From NCBI RefSeq assembly GCF_012027425.1, contig NZ_SNUE01000004.1:137887-201886 (forward strand): 64,000 bases of DNA. Direction: 5' to 3'. The position numbers and the translations under genes are program-made. Of this stretch, positions 35,042-36,554 are shown piece after piece. The notes beneath the pieces are model-generated. The model searched no databases, was not told the origin of the DNA, and saw nothing but the letters and a program-made list of their open reading frames with translations. The stretch comes from Thermococcus sp. MV5. Lineage in GTDB: Archaea > Methanobacteriota_B > Thermococci > Thermococcales > Thermococcaceae. The stretch's first letter is position 1; each line of letters opens with the position of its first letter.

Positions 35042-35075
35042 TCTGACCTCCTTCCCACCGTGAAGGGCGAGGCTT
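35042..35075 (-). repeat. Solo 34-bp hairpin repeat, copy 1 (IS605-like right-end remnant)
   Basis: On the minus strand, AAGCCTCGCCCTTCACGG then TGGGAAGGAGGTCAGA. It matches the copy at 63315-63348 at 30 of 34 positions. CTCGCC pairs with GGTGGG allowing G-U pairs. The CCTCGCC-loop-GGCGGGGAGGA pattern is typical of the 3' end of IS200/IS605-type tnpB elements. No transposase is beside it. Confidence 0.6.
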
Positions 35076-35153
35076 GGAGAAAGAAAAAGTCAAATAACCA
35101 GCAAAGTAATGGTTTCAATAATTAGATAAGATCTAATCTTAAAGGTGATAAAA

Positions 35154-35276
35154 ATGCGAGGACAAGGCTCCATTGAATATACATTTATGCTAAGTGGCGC
35201 TTTACTTCCCGTTGCTTGCAAGGCCTCTTCCGAGAGGGATGGGATACGCAAGGGGAGGCGGGTGGAGAAGATTTAA
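35154..35276 (+). pseudogene. Truncated class III pilin gene
   Basis: AAAGGTGATAAAA precedes an ATG that reads MRGQGSIEYTFMLSGAL, the class III signal (QGSIEY) and the start of the hydrophobic helix. After 17 codons the frame enters the mobile element (CTTCCCGTTGCTTGC), loses all pilin character and stops at 35276. No continuation of the pilin was found beyond the element. Confidence 0.65.
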
Positions 35277-35280
35277 ATAC
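35269..35280 (+). promoter_or_regulatory. TATA box inside the element
   Basis: AGATTTAAATAC is a good archaeal TATA element and lies about 25-30 bases before the start of the folded RNA (about 35300). An independent transcript is therefore likely. Confidence 0.55.
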
Positions 35281-35299
35281 TCCAAGGAAATAGAGTATG

Positions 35300-35453
35300 A
35301 CGGCCTTGTAACAGCCGTAAGGCTGGACAGCCCATAAGGGCTGGTGTAAAGTAGCTCCCGATTCCGAGAGGATAGGGAGTAGTGGCCGCGTGAACCGGCC
35401 TGTGGGGAGCAAACCCCCCACGAAGCTCCTTCCGTAAGGGAGGAGCAGTTCAC
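35300..35453 (+). ncRNA. Orphan omega-RNA-like structured RNA
   Basis: Perfect helices follow each other: CAGCC-GTAA-GGCTG (35312-35325), CAGCCC-ATAA-GGGCTG (35328-35343), CTCCC ... GGGAG (35355-35379), GGCC ... GGCC (35383-35400), GTGGGG ... CCCCAC (35402-35421) and a 9-bp GNRA-capped stem GCTCCTTCC-GTAA-GGGAGGAGC. GTGAAC at 35390-35395, in the loop of the GGCC stem, is complementary to GTTCAC at 35448-35453. This makes the 3' pseudoknot typical of TnpB guide scaffolds. The sequence just after 35453 would be the guide. No tnpB is in the window. An H/ACA or other GC-rich ncRNA remains an alternative. Confidence 0.68.
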
Positions 35454-35549
35454 AGGCTTAGATAAATCCTACCCTTCACATTTAGAATGCTAGCTATACA
35501 ACGTGCAACAAACAATTCTAAGGTAATAGATGGCTCCTTATAAGAACCG

Positions 35550-35593: not shown

Positions 35594-35671
35594 AGCGGGG
35601 TGGGGCAGCTAGGAGTGCCCGCCGGGCTCATAACCCGGAGGTCGGCCGTTCAAATCGGCTCCCCGCTACCA
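35594..35671 (+). tRNA. Initiator tRNA-Met (CAT)
   Basis: A complete cloverleaf with encoded CCA. The acceptor stem AGCGGGG/CCCCGCT gives A1-U72, and the anticodon loop CTCATAA carries CAT. The anticodon stem CCGGG/CCCGG ends with the three G-C pairs that mark initiators, and the T-loop is TTCAAAT. A1-U72 together with GGG/CCC identifies the initiator rather than an elongator. No intron. Confidence 0.95.
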
Positions 35672-35714: not shown

Positions 35715-36554
35715 CTATGGCAAACCTAAATATTCTCTCAAAAGTTGTTGTTTTCTAGATATAGTAAACCCTATCAATTGGTAGAATTTAAAAATATTTT
35801 CTTTCCTATAAACCCTTATCTCATAAAGGTCTGAGGAATATTCGTATTCCTTTCCCCAGAGTTTTACTTTTGTTCCTTTCCTTTTTGTTAATGTGATACG
35901 ACTTTCTATACCTAGACTTTTTAGGAGTCCTCTACAAAATTCTAAAACCTCTATATCATAATTTGAAGCACTAAGATAACCATAGCCCTGCTTACTATTG
36001 AAGTTGAACGTTCCCTCACTATCAAAGAACCCCTTCAAAAATTCAGTAGGATGAGTTCTGGCAATTTCAAATAGGATCTCTTTAGGTTTGTTTAATAAGT
36101 AATATACTCCTTTACTGGTGGCTTCAGTTACAAATCTTTTTCTTCTACCATCACTTTCTTCATAAATCCTAGGATTAGCACCGATTTCCTTAAGAGCTCT
36201 AGCAAATGCCTCCGCAAATTCTTTATCAATAACCTTTAACCTAACCCTGTATTTGTAGTTTCCATGAATATTTATACTGGCGTCTCCAAAATAAACACCT
36301 ATAATATAAGCCAACGAAGGAGAAGGCTCCAGGTTAACAAACTTGATCTTATTAAAGGGATCATGCTCCCCTTTGCACCATCTCGAAATGGTAACCCTAG
36401 AAATTTTGATTCCTTTCTCTTCCAGTGCTCTTTTTGCTATTTGAGAGTAGTTCAATCCTATTTTCCTTAATTCATTAATGTATTTTAAGAGTTCTTGAAG
36501 CTCTTCCTGTCCAAGATCTCTCAGACTGCGCATGATGCTAATTAAGAGACCCAT
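35715..36554 (-). CDS. Free-standing LAGLIDADG homing endonuclease
   Basis: 279 residues. Two LAGLIDADG-type motifs, LAYIIGVYFGDASI near residue 88 and FLKGFFDSEGTFNF near 178, each with the catalytic acidic residue. The N-terminal 65 residues have a helix-turn-helix-like segment (NYSQIAKRALEEKGIKISRV, then TISRWCKG). It is not embedded in an intein or a recognisable intron. It lies tail-to-tail with initiator tRNA-Met (43 bases apart). The start is either ATG 36554 or ATG 36533; there is no clear Shine-Dalgarno, and a TATA run close upstream suggests a near-leaderless mRNA. Confidence 0.85.
   Translation of the reverse strand: MGLLISIMRSLRDLGQEELQELLKYINELRKIGLNYSQIAKRALEEKGIKISRVTISRWCKGEHDPFNKIKFVNLEPSPSLAYIIGVYFGDASINIHGNYKYRVRLKVIDKEFAEAFARALKEIGANPRIYEESDGRRKRFVTEATSKGVYYLLNKPKEILFEIARTHPTEFLKGFFDSEGTFNFNSKQGYGYLSASNYDIEVLEFCRGLLKSLGIESRITLTKRKGTKVKLWGKEYEYSSDLYEIRVYRKENIFKFYQLIGFTISRKQQLLREYLGLP

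Follow-up and report, generated by a model that had tools for sequence, protein, structure and literature searches.

In ISDra2, the RNA used by TnpB is made of the 3' end of tnpB, the right end of the element and about 16 nt of flank. The nuclease cuts the TAM plus guide at the donor joint, and repair has been proposed to restore the transposon (PMC8612924, PMC10097598). Deletion derivatives of such elements, called PATEs (palindrome-associated transposable elements), have been described in Haloquadratum (PMC3119063) and Halanaerobium (PMC7290912); one PATE of Halanaerobium consists of the left end, the last 58 nt of tnpB and the right end.

Finally, P. abyssi transcribes the RNAs sRk48/52 and sRkB/C, which are related to orfB 3' ends, as observed by Northern blot, primer extension and CR-RT-PCR (PMC3124441). 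For sRk48 and sRk52, primary RNAs of 177/180 nt and processed RNAs of 130 nt were found (PMC3124441, Phok et al. 2011). Transcription of sRk52 starts 22 nt after its BRE/TATA, and the orfB-derived RNAs of this species bind L7Ae (PMC3124441).

The window is the whole 64,000-nucleotide stretch of Thermococcus sp. MV5 DNA that was analysed. Judged by its sequence, the segment 35205-35453 is a non-autonomous element of the IS200/IS605 type (IS1341-type), without tnpB, that has kept its ends and a promoter-driven ωRNA gene. Its features are as follows.

35205-35453, plus strand: whole element, left end to right end, delimited by the empty site in genome G007, the filled site in G003 and family BLAST.
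35224-35237, plus strand: left-end hairpin CCTCT-TCCG-AGAGG, from the fold, with an equivalent in the left ends of tnpB-bearing and orphan relatives.
35266-35280, plus strand: archaeal promoter, a BRE-like AGAAGA and the TATA box TTTAAATA (35272-35279); TTTAAAT is invariant in 36/36 type-A copies (defined below).
35297-35302, plus strand: predicted transcription start at about 35299, placed by the TATA-to-start distance of P. abyssi sRk52 (PMC3124441).
35312-35325, plus strand: 5' hairpin 1, 5 bp with a GUAA loop, outside tnpB; from the fold, with 93% of cells paired in 30 copies.
35328-35343, plus strand: 5' hairpin 2, 6 bp, outside tnpB; 98.8% of cells paired, one of the pairs occurring as AU, GU and GC.
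35348-35453, plus strand: ωRNA scaffold, about 106 bp, from the tnpB 3' end and the right end; alignment A2 with the tnpB-bearing L038, L023 and L032, and model R1.
35355-35379, plus strand: scaffold stem CTCCC/GGGAG (5 bp) with inner TCC/GGA (3 bp), from covariation.
35384-35400, plus strand: highly conserved 4-bp stem GGCC/GGCC with GTGAAC in its loop; 99.2% of cells paired.
35390-35395, plus strand: 5' strand of the pseudoknot, GTGAAC, pairing with 35448-35453.
35402-35421, plus strand: variable-loop stem GTGGGG/CCCCAC, 6 bp; 98% of cells paired, three pairs changed on both sides.
35425-35446, plus strand: right-end 3' hairpin, 9 bp with a GUAA loop and one non-Watson-Crick pair; six pairs changed on both sides.
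35448-35453, plus strand: right terminus and 3' strand of the pseudoknot, GTTCAC, from complementarity, site comparison and covariation.
35454-35469, plus strand: would-be guide AGGCTTAGATAAATCC, host flank, matching the empty site TTTAT/AGGGTTAAATAAATCC of G007 with two differences.

The boundaries can be read from related genomes. In the sister genome G007 the site is unoccupied and reads GAGAAATTTTTAT/AGGGTTAAATAAATCC, where the slash marks the junction. In G003, a second sister species, an element of another type (L135, type B) sits precisely between TTTAT and AGGCTTAAATAAATCC. These empty and filled sites give the insertion rule: the elements insert after TTTAT, start with C, end with TTCAC and duplicate no target. 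The window element begins CTTCCCGTTGC and closes with GTTCAC, and in 24 of 35 copies TTTAT stands before the left end. The family has IS605-type ends without a transposase, site-specific insertion and no target duplication.

The window element belongs to type A, and its right junction (35453-35454) is identical to that of the type-B element in G003. Two element types at one junction need either independent insertion or recombinational replacement. At the left, TTTAT and the flank of the window copy have been deleted, leaving the fusion CTTTA/CTTCCC. The flank is now joined to the beginning of a gene of which both G003 and G007 have an intact copy, and the deletion measures about 650 bp.

The surroundings hold several other features. 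The cut-off gene start occupies 35154-35205 (MRGQGSIEYTFMLSGA...), most of the gene having gone in the deletion that reaches the left end of the element. A 46-bp insertion at 35043-35088, absent from the orthologous flank of G003 and G007, is similar to the right end of a different IS605-type group, that of L013 (minus strand ...CCTCGCCCTTCACGGTGGGAAGGAGGTCAG). This sequence recurs in most congeneric genomes, and here it makes up another, minimal element consisting of an end only, on the opposite strand and 117 bp upstream of the main one. A tRNA-Met(CAT) gene, which from general knowledge of archaeal tRNAs we take to be the initiator, lies at 35594-35671, so that the element is 140 bp upstream of it. 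Directly 3' of the tRNA gene is a 279-aa ORF (35715-36554) with a LAGLIDADG_3 domain (Pfam E 1.4e-21).

The guide length of 16 nt is taken from ISDra2 (PMC8612924). A first-pass annotation of the window had placed a guide in the bases after 35453, and the comparison with G007 agrees with this: the flank sequence outside the right end corresponds to the empty site next to the TAM. The sequences 3' of TTCAC differ between copies, except at insertions common to two genomes. A search of the window genome for a second target of the guide gave no close one, returning the element itself and one site with two mismatches.

The predicted structure largely bears out that annotation. The TATA box claimed within 35269-35280 is present at 35272-35279, and GTGAAC (35390-35395) is exactly complementary to GTTCAC (35448-35453). 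Six hairpins do follow the promoter, but not all of them are perfect, as had been said; the 3' stem at 35425-35446 has the nine pairs and the GNRA-type cap described, here GUAA, but includes a non-Watson-Crick pair.

For the 171-nt strand 35300-35470 the folding energy is -82.6 kcal/mol, compared with -56.7 +/- 4.0 for shuffled sequences (z -6.5, 0/200). Pairing that is kept in homologues is more telling than folding energy. Among 30 type-A sequences, the structure with its pseudoknot has 95.4% of cells paired, falling to 35-48% when partners are slid, and 12 pairs are altered on both sides against 6.8 in shuffles, with 0/500 reaching 12; in a mixed set of type-A, type-B and tnpB-bearing sequences, 95.5% of cells are paired and 17 pairs are double-sided (1/500 shuffles). 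Since the structure was drawn on members of the tested sets, and sequence kinship inflates shuffle tests, these numbers support the fold rather than prove it.

Some of the changes can be followed in single helices. The stem at 35355-35379 goes from CCGGC/GCCGG in most tnpB-type copies to CCCCC/GGGGG-like forms in type A, with double-sided changes in 11 copies at each of two pairs. In four relatives the pseudoknot GTGAAC/GTTCAC becomes GTGACC/GGTCAC, an AU to CG change; 97.8% of its cells are paired, and the varying pair is broken in 3 of 30 sequences.

The origin of the scaffold can be found in tnpB-bearing elements. Three of them (L038, L023 and L032) share the right end of the window element, which in them lies behind a tnpB gene; the scaffold overlaps the last part of the tnpB coding sequence (..KVAGDSPIGGIAGSGRVNRPVRVR..). 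A match to tnpB right ends had been set beforehand as a check, and relatives of this kind uphold the description of a transposase-less element carrying an orphan ωRNA-like scaffold with its own promoter. The TnpB of scaffold-sharing relatives matches NCBIfam guided_TnpB and Pfam OrfB_IS605. By alignment A2, the window scaffold is a descendant of a tnpB 3' end and a transposon right end.

L038 has a BRE/TATA before tnpB. In type-B copies such as L021, L026 and L030, the left end and the tnpB promoter region run straight into the scaffold, the gene having been lost. Only one tnpB element with ends matching type A turned up, L068 (tnpB broken), and what lies between its left end and its gene is a different sequence; the promoter and hairpins of type A therefore look like a replacement or the result of strong divergence. 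No parent tnpB element with the type-A promoter-hairpin segment was found among the elements examined. One candidate, on contig C29 of G011, was rejected, being by eye rather a type-A copy split by about 1 kb with an unrelated transposase-like gene.

The annotation had suggested an independent, domesticated guide RNA. The locus is instead a member of a mobile, dispersed family whose guides differ from copy to copy. Of 13 congeneric genomes, 11 give BLAST matches to 35195-35470, and many of these matches cover all or nearly all of its length. Among 94 Thermococcaceae genomes, 49 are matched by model R1 (34 matches in G011, 28 in G010 and 21 in G003), counts that include tnpB-bearing elements and cross-reacting right ends. 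Sixty further genomic regions were read, giving 36 type-A copies with the window copy included (two regions were fetched twice). All 36 have the same layout: left end, BRE/TATA, two 5' hairpins, scaffold, right end. Type B (L021, L026, L030, L043 and others) has another left end, its TATA lies about 85 nt ahead of the conserved core, and most of its copies have no 5' hairpins. Shorter copies consist of the ends only (L004) or of the ends and part of the scaffold (L002, L109).

A few copies depart from these types. L113 is a hybrid in which a type-A left end and 5' hairpins are followed by a tnpB-type scaffold stem (CCGGC/GCCGG), which suggests recombination between element types. L122 and L132 are type-B-like, with the GTGACC/GGTCAC pseudoknot, and by eye have 5' hairpins of their own (AAGACC-GTGA-GGTCTT in L132), possibly an independent gain.

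The enzymes that could serve these elements are present in some hosts. Intact cognate TnpB genes occur together with a single Y1 transposase in G003 and in G011. Several orphan-bearing relatives have no intact cognate TnpB: G006, with one Y1, has broken copies only, and G007 has none. In the window genome (95.9% complete) no Y1 transposase was found, and the search for a cognate tnpB, which the annotation had proposed as a check, gave only a TnpB about 31% identical. Trans activity is therefore plausible in some hosts but unlikely in the present one, where the window copy is probably inert. The distant TnpB of the window genome (G000), at C1:169678, is an intact 441-aa protein of another group (L013); its 3' end matches R1 (E 8e-11), so the scaffold architecture is common to different TnpB groups.

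Taken together, the sequences make it probable that this is a tnpB-less element with a promoter-driven ωRNA, a satellite moved by TnpA and using TnpB in trans in suitable hosts. In hosts with Y1 and cognate TnpB, the Y1 TnpA would move the element in trans. The TATA box would drive an RNA of about 155 nt of scaffold and about 16 nt of flank. After excision, a trans-acting TnpB with the orphan RNA would cleave the donor site left empty (TTTAT followed by the guide), and repair would restore the element. With both enzymes acting in trans, the copies would be satellites of both. Dozens of copies in relatives keep scaffold and promoter, which suggests that the nuclease is borrowed. For the family, use by TnpB in trans appears by analogy to be the best-supported reading. 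The window copy itself most likely neither moves nor has an effector, though it may still be transcribed, and at present it is likeliest a relic.

Alternatively, the element may be a passive deletion derivative (PATE), in which TnpA needs nothing but the ends, while the ωRNA part and promoter are leftovers without a role in trans. PATEs of such a kind are known from Haloquadratum and Halanaerobium, as cited above, and a cognate TnpB is missing both here and in G007. The copies are also related, so that shared sequence is partly ancestry, and conservation may in part come from recent copying off few masters. Against leftovers, promoter and 5' hairpins are better conserved than the left end. In 33 site-distinct type-A copies the left-end columns average 72% conservation and the promoter is the best-conserved 8-column window among 104 in the 5' part, with a slight bias toward TATA conservation because copies were collected with a TATA pattern (up to 3 mismatches). 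The full TTTAAATA is found in 33 type-A copies and TTTAAAT in all 36; two type-A copies without a scored TATA are L102 (truncated contig) and L115 (decayed).

Hairpin 2 also has compensatory changes, yet end-only copies show that the ends alone can be copied. Since L002, L004 and L109 exist without a promoter, promoter and 5' hairpins are dispensable for the copying of an end pair. A further point against leftovers is that the type-A promoter-hairpin segment is absent from L068. On balance, a purely passive derivative is unlikely.

It is highly improbable that the RNA has been domesticated for a host role at this locus, for instance in regulating the neighbourhood of the initiator tRNA. Such a role would suit the 140 bp between element and tRNA-Met gene, and the same junction is occupied in both G000 and G003. 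However, the elements in these two genomes are of different types and the junction is empty in G007, so the domestication and the tRNA link suggested by the annotation are not borne out. The guide also has no second close target in its own genome, where a cognate TnpB is missing as well.

An RNA class unrelated to TnpB (H/ACA, C/D or another L7Ae-binding RNA) can be dismissed as barely conceivable: the RNA is GC-rich and structured in a hyperthermophile, and L7Ae binds related RNAs of orfB origin in P. abyssi (PMC3124441), but direct homology to tnpB 3' ends already contradicts it, and Rfam, at gathering and relaxed thresholds, gives no match beyond one chance microRNA hit and thus no better family of the sort that the annotation had said would count against it. 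L7Ae binding could be an addition compatible with the ωRNA reading.

If orphan RNAs are used in trans, they form a natural multi-guide TnpB system, and the elements are parasites of the parasite, benefiting from both enzymes without transposase or nuclease genes. This would also give a likely function to the archaeal ncRNAs sRk48/52 and sRkB/C, unexplained in 2011, and provide natural short, promoter-driven ωRNA genes from hyperthermophiles. A wider proposal is tentative: Thermococcales may carry dispersed TnpB-less satellites, each expressing, from a promoter under selection, an ωRNA with its own guide; a single TnpB would then be multiplexed in trans over dozens of sites, and the design would have arisen several times from different TnpB groups.

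The closest parallels differ from the window family in separate ways. Like the ISDra2 RNA, the window ωRNA combines a tnpB 3' end and a right end, has a flank guide of about 16 nt and ends in a pseudoknot with an upstream strand (PMC8612924, PMC10097598). Unlike it, it is encoded without tnpB and under its own promoter. With PATEs the family has in common IS605-type ends only, no transposase and no target duplication, and PATEs are mobilised in trans; the window family keeps a full ωRNA gene and a conserved promoter, neither of which is mentioned in the available parts of the PATE descriptions.

The RNAs of P. abyssi are of the same design. As in the window family, sRk48/52 are orphan RNAs from an orfB/tnpB 3' end with a BRE/TATA promoter, an extra 5' stem and repeated loci. 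Their right end, in contrast, is AGAACGG, as in the tnpB loci L009-L011 of the window genome, and they have about six copies. They give no R1 match and no significant BLAST match to the window element, and reading of the loci led to rejection of an identity with it; they belong to a different orfB group. The RNAs sRkB/sRkC are likewise promoter-driven, derived from an orfB 3' end and transcribed, whereas their right end, by reading of the sequences, resembles the L012 tnpB group, and they too give no R1 match. Both sets are presumably ωRNAs, although not so named in 2011.

Since sRk48/52, sRkB/C and the window family fall in separate groups, at least three tnpB groups show this architecture, and transcript evidence exists for two of these (sRk48/52 and sRkB/C). 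A search of the literature on orphan or MITE ωRNAs of TnpB, with most subscription journals outside its scope, found no paper on the window family. Orphan RNAs of like design, promoter-driven and belonging to other orfB (tnpB) groups, set a precedent in 2011 (PMC3124441), and the general idea is not wholly new. As we read the comparison, what is new is this high-copy family, and the interpretation that elements which lost tnpB have repeatedly retained or acquired a promoter for the ωRNA.
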